This document shows positions 24,270-63,751 of a stretch of 64,000 nt of DNA, in pieces. Both the position numbers and the translations under genes were made by a program. Source of the DNA: Boothiomyces macroporosus (Eukaryota > Chytridiomycota > Chytridiomycetes > Rhizophydiales > Terramycetaceae). The first letter of the stretch is position 1. Every line of letters starts with the position of its first letter. Under the pieces are notes generated by a model. The model saw nothing but the letters and a program-made list of their open reading frames with translations. It was not told the DNA's origin and ran no database searches. Where the stretch lies: positions 310,001 through 374,000 of the forward strand of contig JADGKB010000001.1 of assembly GCA_027604185.1 (NCBI GenBank), in the 5' to 3' direction.

Positions 24270-24930
24270 ATGGAAGAAGTTTTTTGGGTCACTAGAGCAA
24301 ATTGCTCTTTGGGATCTCGCTCCTTTTTGAGAATCTGAAGGTTTCAGATCCGAAAACGGACCGCAAATGGAAACATCTCATCATTGAAATTAATAGGGGA
24401 GATGTTCTTTCAAGCAGCTGGAATTTCTGGTTTCATTCATCCATTACGGTGAACTAGAATGAGAGATTCACGTTGAGCGTGCCTTGGTAATTTATCCCTT
24501 GATTTTTTACTTTGCCTACACCGCATACATTTTTAACGAGATAAATGAATTGCAGGAGATGATTTTGACATTAAACATAAATAAATTGCAGAAGATGATT
24601 TTGACATTAAACATAAATGAATTGCAGAAGATGATATTGACATTAAACATAAATAAATTGCAGAAGATGATGTTGAAGTTAAACGTTGACCTTTGTAAAG
24701 AATGTCCGCAACCCTACCTTAATATCAAGGGATTCCCCAAGTGCTCCTTAATTTCAACCAGCAAAAGTACAGAGCTGTGAAACCAATCAGTGCATGGGAA
24801 TACATGTTCCAAATCCTCATAATTCACCACTCTTTAGAACGGTTCTTGGAGTGGAGTAACATTACGTCCAATTCAGGAAATCATTTTAATTCAAACTTGA
24901 AAGAATTTTTGTTTTTTTGAAAATCAGAGA
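24270..24930. other. Gene-poor spacer with a minisatellite
   Basis: About 660 nt between divergent genes. It contains the 36-nt tandem repeat listed separately. A plus-strand frame runs through the repeat (about 24463-24780) but has no ATG before the repeats. It could be a decayed or very short gene; I do not annotate a CDS. Confidence 0.45.
24541..24684 (+). repeat. 36-nt tandem repeat, four copies
   Basis: Exactly 144 nt made of four 36-nt units that start ataaat(g/a)aattgcag and end with ttaaac. Copies 1 and 3 carry ataaatg, copies 2 and 4 ataaata, which suggests a dimer was duplicated. In one frame each unit would encode a 12-residue leucine-rich peptide (INELQKMILTLN-like). The units contain no GT donor and are not tandem introns. 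Confidence 0.9.
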
Positions 24931-28200: not shown

Positions 28201-29378
28201 ATGTTTTACAAACCTTTTGGGTTGGACTATGCGACATGGTGGTCAAACCTCATAATGCAGCAGATTTACCAATCGGCAATCTTTACATTTATCTACAACA
28301 CGGCTAAATTAATTTACGGGTACATTACTGGTACTACGGAAATATACAGGATTTGCGATTCCATTGTCCGAATAAACAATATCCAACCGTTTAAATATCA
28401 AGACTTGAACGAAATAATCAACGAGCAAAAGCGGATTATTTTGTCACCAGAGGAGCTTTACAGGTTGGACCAGTGTATCCTTCACTCTTCGAAATTAGAT
28501 GATTTCCGCCGTCCATTTGAATCTTGGTTTAGTCAAGTGGAAATTGAACCGAATGATATTGTTGAACCCGGACACGGAACAAAGTTTGAAGAGCTATTTC
28601 AATTGCTAGCGAAAATCAAAAAGTTTCCAAAGAAAGAAGGAGAGATTAGGTACCTTTGATTAATGCAGTTCGCAAATGCTTGTATTACGGCAAGGAATGA
28701 CTGAAATATTCAGCACTTTTCAGTTATTGCATGAATTGAACGCCAGAGCAGGTAGATATTGTTAACTATAGGTAAATAAAGTTGACAATAGGAACTAGAT
28801 ATGACATTACTGTTCCAGCCAATGAAAAGAAATTAAAGAGTTTGTGGACAATGTTGATGGATGAGCCACTAACGTCCCGATTTACATCTCAATGGCAAAA
28901 GATTGGATTCCAAGTAAAAAAAATTAATGCAGGGAAAAGACCCATCAACAGACTTCAGAGCAATGGGATTACTAGCCTTGGATAATCTGGTCTATTTTTG
29001 TCAAAACTATATTGATATAGCTAAACGTATTCTCAATACCAGCCACCATCCTGTATCTTGGTTTTCATTCGCCCTTTGCGGCATCAACATCACCGCCTAT
29101 TGTTTGCGTCTAGTTAGAACTAGGCAGTTGCAGTTCACATTTTACAGCTATGGCATCCACAAGGATACGTTTAATGAAATCTATTGTACTACTGCCTAAT
29201 CCTAGGTTTTATATTCGATGCCTTTGAAAAATATTGGACTAATCAAAAGAAACCGCCAAGTGTGCTTGATTTTGAAAACTTGTTTAGAAAATTCCAGATG
29301 GACTATGAAATGTTGCTCCTAACGCGACAGAATGTGTTTTTGAAACCAAGAATGAAATTAAAGTACAAGAGAGAATAA
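28201..29378 (+). CDS. ELMO/CED-12 domain protein (ELMOD-like Arf/Arl GAP)
   Basis: 359 residues. ELMOD proteins are GTPase-activating proteins for Arl2 and Arf. The ELMO domain is clear from about residue 170 on: SLWTMLMDEP, the signature WQKIGFQGKDPSTDFRAMGLLALDNLVYF containing the conserved Arg finger region, and a C-terminal FIFDAFEKYW segment. Introns: 28650-28668, a 40-nt interruption at 28752-28791 that reads as two abutting 20-nt introns, 28914-28932, and 29186-29205. Only removal of all 40 nt restores the frame (ARAGTRYDIT). I chose the first ATG. Confidence 0.88.
28752..28791 (+). other. Two back-to-back 20-nt introns
   Basis: Unit A (28752-28771) begins gtagat and ends ttaactatag. 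Unit B (28772-28791) begins gtaaat and ends ttgacaatag. Each unit alone has a GTA donor, a branch-like TTAAC or TTGAC and a TAG acceptor, and the junction is a perfect AG|GTAA. There is no exon nucleotide between them. The alternative is a single 40-nt intron. Confidence 0.7.
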
Positions 29379-41247: not shown

Positions 41248-42139
41248 ATGATAATCATCAGAGGGCTAGCAAACAAATTTAGGTCAATGAATGCGGTAAG
41301 AGTAGGATTGAATTCGCATTATGGGTTCAGTCCGCTATATTCACTAAAAAGGTGGTATTCGGAAGAGAAACTTGAATCAGTGGTGTTTCAAGGGGAGAGT
41401 GTTCAACAGGAATACACTGGAGTATCTCAAGAAGGATTCAGTCCGGAAATACTCTCGATATTAAATGCACCAATCAGGGAGGAAGATATTGAAGTCACGC
41501 CAGACGGACATTTGTATCTACCGGGAATAAAGTATTAGTTGCTAATAATAGGTATCGCAGAATATTGAACCAGTCATTTGGTCCAGGTGGATGGGCGTTG
41601 GTTTGTTGTGATTAATCCAAGGTATATTTATTTTAATTTAGGTAACTGTAATTTGAGATAGGTAAGTGTAATTTGAGATAGGTAACTGTAAATTGAGATA
41701 GGTAAGTGTAATTTGAGATAGGTAAGTGTAATTTGAGATAGGTAAGTGTGATGTAACAAGGTAAGTAAAAGTAACAAAGGTGCCACGCGGTCCACATACA
41801 ACAATCAACAAGACTCTATCAAGAGAATATGCTCTATATGCCCATGGAAGATTTATCGCCCAAGCAAGAGGAGAACAAGCTTATTTTTCAGATGAAGGAA
41901 TCCCAACTGCCACCGAAGGATGCAAATCAAATGCACTAACACGTTGCTGCAAAGATCTCGGAATAGCATTTGAACTCTGGGATCCTCGCTTTATTCGGAA
42001 ATTCAAGAGTGAAAATGTAGTTATGGTACAAGGGGTGCATGTGCGCACTGGGCAATCAAAGTGGTTGTACAAGCTCAAGAATGATACTCTTGAATACCCT
42101 TACAAGGAAAAGGAACAACCAAAAACTTTTAAAAAATAA
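41248..42139 (+). CDS. MGM101: MGM101, mitochondrial DNA annealing and repair protein
   Basis: 230 residues. Rad52-related single-strand annealing protein of the mitochondrial nucleoid. The N-terminus ([20 protein letters not shown]) is a plausible presequence. The core matches the family closely: [63 protein letters not shown], and [23 protein letters not shown]. Introns: 41532-41551 (20 nt) and the 179-nt interruption at 41601-41779. Deleting exactly 179 nt rejoins GGWAL to VPRG in frame, and the total is a whole number of codons. Confidence 0.93.
41601..41779 (+). repeat. Tandem array of nine 19-21-nt intron units inside MGM101
   Basis: The 179-nt interruption divides without remainder into nine units, each beginning GT and ending AG: 41601-41621, 41622-41641, 41642-41661, 41662-41681, 41682-41701, 41702-41721, 41722-41741, 41742-41760 and 41761-41779. 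Units 4, 6 and 7 are identical (gtaagtgtaatttgagatag). Unit 3 differs from them at one base and unit 5 at two. Units 1, 2, 8 and 9 are diverged. Unit length equals the modal intron length of the window. An alternative is one 179-nt intron with a 20-nt minisatellite. Confidence 0.8.
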
Positions 42140-61972: not shown

Positions 61973-63751
61973 ATGACTGTTGAGCTCAAGCAAGAGCAAG
62001 CGTAATTTTCAAAATTAATCTCAGACCTGAAATTTCAAAGAAGGAACCTGTTTTTCAACAGGAAGTTAAAGAGGAAGAGATATCTCAAGTAACTGAATCA
62101 TATACCCAACAAGAGGAAGAACAGGCAAACGATCTGTTAATATTAGACTGTAGATCAACAGGAGCAACCAGAGCAAGATCCTTTATTGATCAAAGAGCAA
62201 CTTAAATGGATTGGGACGATGATCAAGAACATGAAGCGACGCAAGGGATCCCACATCTTTCATAACCCGGTGGATCCTGTTGCTCTTAATATTCCGACAT
62301 ATTTCGATGTTATCAAGAACCCAATGGATATTTCAACAATCGAAAAGAAACTCTCAACTTACAACAGTGCCAAGGAGTGTTTTGATGATTTTGAATTAAT
62401 GTTCAATAACTGCTATACCTTTAACGGCCAGAGCTCAGCTGTTGGAATCATGTCCATGGAATTACAGAAATGGTTCGAGAAAGAATGGGAAAAACTTCCA
62501 AAGAGTTTGGAACAAGTGGAAGCCAAGAAGAAGCGCAAGTCAGATATTGGACTGGTAAGTACTTTATGCCGTAAATGAGCATTACGTATTGTAATTCTGA
62601 TCTACGCGACCAAAGAACCCGCTAATCACAGGGGTTAAGAGAAGTTCCTACTGACACTCGTCCAAGAAGAGAAGCAGCTCATGAGGACGGAAAGAAAAGG
62701 CTATTATCAAAGAAATCACTCCTCGACATGAAATTTTGTAATCATATACACCGCGAGGTTACACGCAAACAATATAATCATTTCGTTTGGCCATTTTTGA
62801 CACCAGTTGATCCGGAAGCTATGGGGATCCCACAGTATCGTACAATTGTTACACATCCTATGGATCTATCAACAATCAAAAAGAAGCTGGATTCTTCCGA
62901 GTACTTGTCTGCCGAAGACTATGAAGAAGATTTCCGTCTAATGCTCAATAACTGTTTTGCATTTAACGCTGTTGGAACGGAGGTATATAACTACGGAAAG
63001 CAACTGGAATCACTGTTTAATTTAAAATGGGCCGAAAAGACAACCTTCTTACTGCAACACGGTGAATCAAAAGTCAGAAAGATGTCTGGGCTTGACGAGA
63101 CTTCTGATGAAGATGACGATGGTGCATTTGATTTAACACTAGATGAGGATGCAAGACATATCCAGATGTTGAAATCTCAGTTAGTACTCTTAAATCAGCA
63201 ATTGCAAATGCTCACAGAAAAACGTGCCAAAAAGAAGAAGAGAAAGTCCATCAGCGGACCCGCTGGAGTTGGTTCCGGGGTTGCAGCACCTGGTCTTGCA
63301 TCTGTAAAGAAAAAGTCCAAATCTAAATCTGGGGATAAGAAGAGCAACAAAAAGAAGAGGCCACACAACGACACCGATGATGAAAAAATGCCAGAAACCG
63401 ATATTACTTATGAACAAAAGCGAGAACTCTCGGATAATATTAATATTTTACCACCAGAAAAGCTACCACAAGTGTTTGAAATTATTAAAGAAAACACTCA
63501 ACTGCAGGTAGTTTGTTGCTTATTCTAGGCTGCTGAAGATGAAGAGATCGAGTTGGATATTGATTCATTAGACAAAGCCGTCTTGTGGAAACTCTATCTT
63601 TTTGTGAAGAAGCATACTCGCCCACCAAAGAAGGCCAAATACGACGATGAAAATGGCACAGCAACAGGCGCAGGTATTTTTTTCATTAACGCAAGCTGCC
63701 TCCAGTTCTTCTGAATCGGATGATGATGATTCAGGTAGTGCTAGCGACTAG
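61973..63751 (+). CDS. BDF1: BET-family double bromodomain protein (BDF1-like)
   Basis: 537 residues. Two bromodomains bind acetyl-lysine on histones: BD1 about 55-150 (FHNPVDPVALNIPTYFDVIKNPMD, FNNCYTFNGQ with the key Asn) and BD2 about 212-310 (FLTPVDPEAMGIPQYRTIVTHPMD, LNNCFAFNAVG). A NET domain follows at about 433-510 (DITYEQKRELSDNINILPPEKL, then EIELDIDSLDKAVLWKLYLFVKK), and a Ser/Asp tail. Introns: 62002-62024, 62125-62146 (GC-AG donor), 62555-62631 (77 nt), 63508-63528, 63674-63695. Acts as chromatin reader with TFIID. Confidence 0.93.
62555..62631 (+). other. Only long simple intron in the window (77 nt)
   Basis: Donor gtaagt, branch-like gctaatcacag. Removal of 77 nt rejoins the linker between the two bromodomains in frame (DIGL to GLREVPT). 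It does not divide into clean GT...AG units without leftover bases, so it differs from the MGM101 array. The linker is not conserved, so the exact borders are less certain than elsewhere. Confidence 0.65.

Follow-up and report, generated by a model that had tools for sequence, protein, structure and literature searches.

Tandem arrays of putative complete micro-introns with zero-length exons in a chytrid fungus

The MGM101 gene of this chytrid fungus is interrupted at 41601-41779 (+ strand) by 179 nt that consist of nine head-to-tail GT..AG units. Similar arrays recur across the genome, their units carry splice signals of their own, and the reading frame is intact once all units have been removed. 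The explanation that we favour, and to which we give a probability of about three in four, is that the 179 nt are nine complete spliceosomal micro-introns with zero-length exons between them, which would each be excised separately and would have multiplied partly by tandem duplication. Separate excision, freedom of order and an origin by slippage are what we infer from the sequence. The array lies in the window, the whole 64,000-nt stretch of DNA that was analysed (C1:310001-374000, from a genome of 15,203,306 bases in 216 contigs), and positions given here without a contig name refer to this window.

Anatomy of the MGM101 array and of a second array in the window

The MGM101 gene occupies 41248..42139 on the + strand, as delimited by a gene parse, by the Pfam match and by the homologue. 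Its first intron (41532..41551, +; GTATTAGTTGCTAATAATAG) is an ordinary single intron of 20 nt, after whose removal the spliced protein fits its homologues. The array that follows stands in phase 0. In order, its units measure 21, 20, 20, 20, 20, 20, 20, 19 and 19 nt, and each of the eight joints between them reads AG|GT. Three units (4, 6 and 7) have the same sequence, from which unit 3 is one base off and unit 5 two bases off. An earlier note on this DNA had divided the interruption into nine GT..AG units with AG|GT joints, and this division was confirmed exactly, including the lengths and the unit identities. When the array was shuffled 20,000 times with its dinucleotides preserved, no shuffle could be tiled fully by GT..AG units of 18-24 nt. 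TRF reported a 20-nt unit in 5.6 copies at 41639-41749, and the near-identical tandem repeats are confined to units 3-7; the outer units 1, 2, 8 and 9 have diverged from this core and have kept the tiling. A genome search found the array repeat at its own locus only.

The nine units, all on the + strand, differ in how they score against the single introns of this genome. Unit 1 (41601..41621, 21 nt, branch TTAAT) scores at the 8th percentile and has a weak donor, GTTTGT, at the 5th, whereas the seven internal donors that include those of units 3-7 stand at the 78-82nd. Unit 2 (41622..41641, 20 nt, branch TTAAT) reaches the 71st percentile. The near-identical 20-nt units 3-7 (41642..41741) have the candidate branch TTGAG, a motif below average, and each of these five core units lies at the 13th percentile. 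Unit 8 (41742..41760, 19 nt), with the weak branch GTAAC, is at the 2nd percentile with a null tail of 0.079, and unit 9 (41761..41779, 19 nt, branch GTAAC) is at the 13th.

The 179 nt are not divisible by 3, and their removal joins the flanking exons as GGWAL|VPRG, as in other MGM101 proteins. After removal of intron 1 and the array the product has 230 aa, and residues 53-220, with the junction at residue 111 among them, belong to the Pfam domain Mgm101p (E 5e-73). The nearest protein comes from Boothiomyces sp. JEL0838 and shares 98% identity along the whole 230 aa, so that the exon boundaries which MGM101 homology was earlier said to fix are borne out both by this identity and by the domain across the junction. 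In a protein alignment, seven other sequences span the junction, and six of them (P0001, P0004, P0006, P0008, P0013 and P0016, the last counted by allowing GM-KP) have GGWAL|VPRG without interruption. The exception is Boothiomyces sp. JEL0866 (P0002), whose annotated MGM101 carries 12 extra residues exactly at the junction. This insert corresponds to 36 nt in frame, starts with V and ends with K, as GT..AAG would, and it is presumably intron sequence that was not recognised as such in annotation. By codon logic the 36 nt cannot be two units joined at AG|GT, and the site therefore differs from that of the present strain. The Terramyces annotation (P0003) is without the stretch on both sides of the junction and is uninformative there.

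The earlier note described the MGM101 array correctly and overlooked a second array in the same window. It lies in a gene of the ELMO/CED-12 family (28255..29378, +; PF04727, E 2e-43) and consists of two units of 20 nt each, GTAGATATTGTTAACTATAG at 28752..28771 and GTAAATAAAGTTGACAATAG at 28772..28791 (both +), which score at the 56th and the 52nd percentile of single introns. The nearest protein to the ELMO product is again from Boothiomyces sp. JEL0838, with 98% identity, and the two JEL0838 homologues carry the close locus tags HDV04_003584 and HDV04_003590. The present chytrid is thus a near relative of JEL0838.

Intron size in the genome

Introns were surveyed in 264 kb (C1:1-200000 and the window) with a home-made gene finder based on codon usage. 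The first parse demanded only GT..AG ends and a length of 15-150 nt and used neither a splice-site profile nor a length preference. It gave 155 introns, 93 of which were of 18-23 nt while the remainder was spread thinly over all lengths, and the length peak at 19-22 nt was present already before any training. After training on its own output of the first parse, the refined gene finder placed 377 introns of 18-23 nt in the 264 kb, 168 of them exactly 20 nt long. The 363 single introns begin with the donor GTA, followed by A or another base at +4, and end mostly in a YAG acceptor. Their branch motif is YTNAY (mostly YTAAY). In about 90% of them it starts 9 or 10 nt before the intron ends; the usual distance of the branch A is 6-7 nt. 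It is in itself unusual that a chytrid fungus should have introns with a length mode of 20 nt throughout the genome and a branch A so near the end. The introns of Cryptococcus neoformans, with a mean of 63 bp, are termed relatively short (PMC8476143).

Array units compared with single introns

The GT donor, the branch motif and the AG acceptor occur in array units at the usual distances of this organism. Among the 55 units of 15 curated arrays, 52 scored at or above the 5th percentile of the 363 single introns (49 of the 52 distinct unit strings reached the single-intron range). The curated units gave p=0.25 against single introns and p=1e-35 against random GT..AG stretches, in a set of arrays found partly by patterns that required AG|GT and, in some, the first branch motif. 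A fibrillarin-like array at C9:146967 was excluded from the 55 units, as two parses of it disagree. The WD40 gene has one unit at the 0th percentile, and a different parse takes a 21-nt unit of this gene for exon.

Two further comparisons were less exposed to this selection. One used searches in which the branch motif was required in the first unit only. Four of them gave 70 matches (30+8+22+10), and 66 were scored, leaving out C100:7993, C216:367 and C20:111709 as duplicates and one of the overlapping matches C13:91392/91395. The second unit scored as a real intron in 35 of the 66 matches, which represent 27 loci; such a score was reached by 4.7% of 379 GTA..YAG stretches from exons and by 8.8% of random ones (p=5e-20 with the pairs treated as independent, which overlapping pairs of one array are not). 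The first unit was below the threshold in three of these 35. The other used a pattern that required no branch motif at all; 35 of its 49 distinct units carried one, compared with a chance rate of 14.9% and a rate of 97.5% among single introns. In a shuffle test of five arrays, 0 of 20,000 shuffles tiled for each. Chance as the origin of the arrays is ruled out by the shuffles together with the second-unit test, and the earlier view of the units as complete introns agrees with a splice-signal profile that matches the stand-alone 20-nt introns of the genome.

Arrays elsewhere in the genome

The searches differed in what they could find. A chain pattern with GTRNGT donors matched MGM101 only (three matches, one in the control). 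A looser pattern with three junctions gave 36 matches versus 7 with the reversed pattern, and two further searches also contrasted strongly with their reversed-pattern control (30 vs 2 and 22 vs 3), while the contrast was weak in others (24 vs 15, 12 vs 5, 10 vs 5 and 8 vs 3). The pattern searches yielded 27 further candidate loci, with about five expected by chance. Together with MGM101, ELMO, C8:114395, C8:114759, C9:146967, C163:22335 and C68:73139, the candidates number about 34, of which some five are perhaps due to chance. Some possible donors and branch spacings fall outside the patterns, and the true number of arrays should therefore be higher. The genome-wide search that the earlier note had suggested thus found other arrays beyond chance expectation, with units of unrelated sequence. 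A minisatellite and nothing more is rejected as the general explanation, since the units in most other arrays are dissimilar.

Eight arrays, with 34 units, lie inside Pfam domains, and these domains are continuous only with all units removed. Besides the MGM101 and ELMO arrays (179 and 40 nt), they are found in a USP7-like gene with MATH and UCH (4 units, 82 nt), a glycogen debranching enzyme (6 units, 133 nt), a PEX1-like gene (3 units, 64 nt), an ING-like gene on C92 (5 units, 101 nt), a ubiquitin-conjugating-like gene (3 units, 64 nt) and a GH63 glucosidase (2 units, 43 nt). All eight totals leave a remainder on division by 3; two other arrays have the divisible totals 57 and 63 nt. Further arrays are present in an unnamed gene on C22 (2 units), in a C99 gene without a Pfam match (3 units), in one C8 gene with two arrays of 3 units each, in the WD40 gene (arrays of 5 and 2 units) and in a gene on C27 (3 units), which from reading alone we take to be channel-like.

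The unselected 264 kb contained two clean arrays, those of MGM101 and ELMO. Two further close pairs there, one of 19+35 nt abutting and one of 21+167 nt two bases apart, both sit in one repeat-bearing gene (C1:7594-8147) and were regarded as parse errors. The matches on C16 (C16:143923-144032 and C16:137511-137557) were counted as false, as they belong to a 21-bp minisatellite, GTGTTCAACGGAGGGATGTAG, with AG|GT spacing but no branch motif. Identical two-unit matches were seen at C20:66642 and C20:111709 and again at C49:6398 and C100:7993, which indicates either that array-bearing segments have been duplicated or that the assembly holds alleles.

Removal and origin of the units

For the genome as a whole, we consider it likely that splicing is serial: self-contained introns of about 20 nt would multiply almost neutrally into arrays of up to at least nine and would be removed in any order, by intron definition alone and with no cryptic exons. 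A stretch of about 20 nt with GTA, a YTNAY branch near its end and YAG would be a sufficient intron in this organism, and each unit would be recognised whole. On removal of any unit its neighbours would rejoin without a scar, and the process would repeat until none is left. Because every junction is AG|GT, the units should be removable independently and in any order with the same product, and the anatomy does not call for the stepwise, ratchet-like removal that the earlier note considered. A retained unit would add 19-23 nt and mostly shift the frame, so that each unit must keep its own signals. Signals that are kept in every unit while the rest drifts are expected if each unit is used, and not if the whole array is removed in one step.

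A variant that we hold to be less probable than not is mixed removal, in which some donors skip to later acceptors, so that larger bites are taken along with single units and AG|GT acts as a dual-specific or ratchet site. All AG|GT pairings would yield the same mRNA, longer introns seem possible in this genome, and dual-specific AGGT sites are described for human (PMC10809524). However, the dominant intron mode of 19-22 nt suggests a strong preference for sites about 20 nt apart, and nucleomorph introns are stated to be less efficient from 21-27 nt on (PMC5014332).

As for the origin of the units, we propose that exact tandem duplication of a unit is at least one way in which arrays begin and lengthen, after which the units drift in sequence, and the AG-G(T) at both ends of many introns may serve as a natural direct repeat for slippage. 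The tandem duplication put forward in the earlier note fits the MGM101 core, C8:114395 and the ING array on C92, which contain clear head-to-tail copies. On average, the similarity between adjacent units exceeds that between random introns (0.538 vs 0.408; 0.494 without MGM101, p=0.002). Taken singly, 5 of the 32 adjacent pairs outside MGM101 exceed the random 95% level and 27 do not, and duplication is thus either old or not the sole route. Among the MGM101 units, the comparison of spacers comprises only 2-3 positions per pair and is uninformative.

It is conceivable, though in our view unlikely, that the main source of the units was not tandem duplication but new micro-introns that inserted at AG|GT through reverse splicing or an introner-like process. 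Such an origin would suit the 27 pairs without detectable similarity, and also a mild and weakly controlled excess of near-identical single introns (19 pairs with at most two mismatches vs about 6 in column shuffles, which break correlations within introns). The clear copies at the three loci named above speak against insertion as the main source, as does the fact that similarity fades fast in very short diverged sequences.

One rival takes the 179 nt as one ordinary intron that runs from the initial GT to the final AG and is removed in one step, with the 20-nt periodicity as a functionless minisatellite or relic of duplication. The five near-identical repeat units in MGM101 and the weakness of some internal branch motifs would fit such an intron. 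A few longer introns that cannot be tiled also appear to exist in the genome, so that a longer intron can probably be removed in one step and the rival keeps some weight. On the other hand, the dissimilar units of other arrays still keep donor, branch, acceptor and a length of 19-23 nt, for which one-step removal offers no reason, and in MGM101 the diverged units 1, 2, 8 and 9 tile as well. Moreover, seven of the eight internal donors in MGM101 are stronger than the outer one, and a weak outer donor with strong internal ones is the reverse of what a one-step intron of 179 nt would need. We therefore judge this rival to be improbable. Removal other than by splicing, through translational bypass or DNA elimination, was raised on account of the small size, but nothing was found for it, and given the GT..AG ends, the positioned YTNAY branch and the same signals in single introns it is hardly credible.

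Comparison with known systems and significance

Splicing is usually described as the joining of exons. If separate excision of every unit is true, the spliceosome here meets as many as nine complete introns in direct contact, near the lower size limit of known introns. A close likeness is to recursive splicing in Drosophila, which also has a juxtaposed AG|GT, an apparent zero-nucleotide exon and removal in parts, while its ratchet points are stated to depend on a cryptic RS-exon downstream and are found chiefly in long introns (PMC8605326). The AG|GT juxtaposition inside an interruption is present in this fungus, eight times in MGM101 and also in further arrays. By contrast with Drosophila, the units are of about 20 nt, stand up to nine in a row and need not be removed in a fixed order; the next AG|GT is only 19-21 nt away, which leaves no room for an RS-exon. 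The arrays thus seem best explained, as far as their sequence goes, as working like recursive splicing at AG|GT but without the cryptic exon of the Drosophila form.

Stwintrons of fungi share with the arrays a complex interruption that takes more than one standard splicing reaction, but their inner intron interrupts a splice element of the outer one and must be removed first (PMC7138796, PMC9024468). The MGM101 array divides fully into complete units placed end to end, with nothing nested, and is therefore not a stwintron. Dual-specific AGGT splice sites in tandem repeats, as in human UBC, likewise combine tandem AG|GT sites that can serve as donor or acceptor with a link to repeat expansion; there the repeat unit is coding and splicing varies the copy number in the protein (PMC10809524), whereas in the chytrid the repeat unit is the intron. 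The introns of ciliates (about 25 nt) and nucleomorphs (18-20 nt) resemble the chytrid ones in tiny size, tight range and intron definition, but the host here is a fungus, and the word 'tandem' is absent from the paper on these ultra-short introns (PMC5014332). In Cryptococcus, expansion of an intron-containing repeat is similar in that duplicated intron-bearing DNA makes new introns. The accessible part of that account describes several separate near-identical introns of one gene, two of them gains, and contains no zero-length exons (PMC2395259). Within the titles and abstract beginnings of the open-access literature, we found no report of tandem complete micro-introns or of 20-nt introns in chytrids.

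If our explanation is right, introns in this fungal lineage would still be gained, lost and lengthened through the arrays, and the range of units from identical to unrelated could be a natural record of the birth and ageing of introns. They would make it possible to test how splice partners are chosen among donors and acceptors that are all equivalent, whether exon definition is needed for an exon of zero length, and how introns multiply. Gene predictors may misread genes with arrays; the MGM101 annotations of JEL0866 and Terramyces both deviate at the position of the array.

Longer introns and further observations

The gene parse proposed 47 introns longer than 24 nt in the 264 kb, in a run that allowed chains, so that arrays are excluded from this number. 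Twelve of the 47 had a regional gain of at least 10, the gains being common to the introns of one gene. Support for individual introns, tested by forbidding one intron, did not discriminate among them, as nearby alternatives compensated. A few non-tileable introns of 45-122 nt are probably genuine, and a strict upper limit on intron size is unsupported. Some of the longer introns are artefacts, such as that at C1:149204, which fuses two genes and by our own reading loses a conserved stretch of an E2-like enzyme. In the window, candidates with moderate support were proposed at 62555-62631 (77 nt) and 62089-62146 (58 nt), and the earlier statement that all other introns but one measure 19-25 nt has to be qualified by these longer single introns.

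The largest regional gain, 59.5, belongs to a non-tileable intron of 45 nt at C1:109915-109959. Excision of its inner GT..AG stretch of 22 nt would leave a good micro-intron of 23 nt, and judging by this arrangement the intron may be nested like a stwintron. A likely intron of 122 nt at C1:49892-50013 lies in a gene that we take to encode ribosomal protein L7. It contains TGATGA, similar to a C box, and CTGA, similar to a D box; this makes it snoRNA-like by our own reading only, and a possible snoRNA host. Rfam scans gave no match, either at this locus, at whose end the intron is cut, or in the whole window. The 77-nt candidate at 62555-62631, in what is presumably a gene for a bromodomain protein, ends in a good branch motif, GCTAATCACAG. 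A tandem repeat of 36 bp, with four copies and 92% matches by TRF, is also present in the window at 24541-24684.
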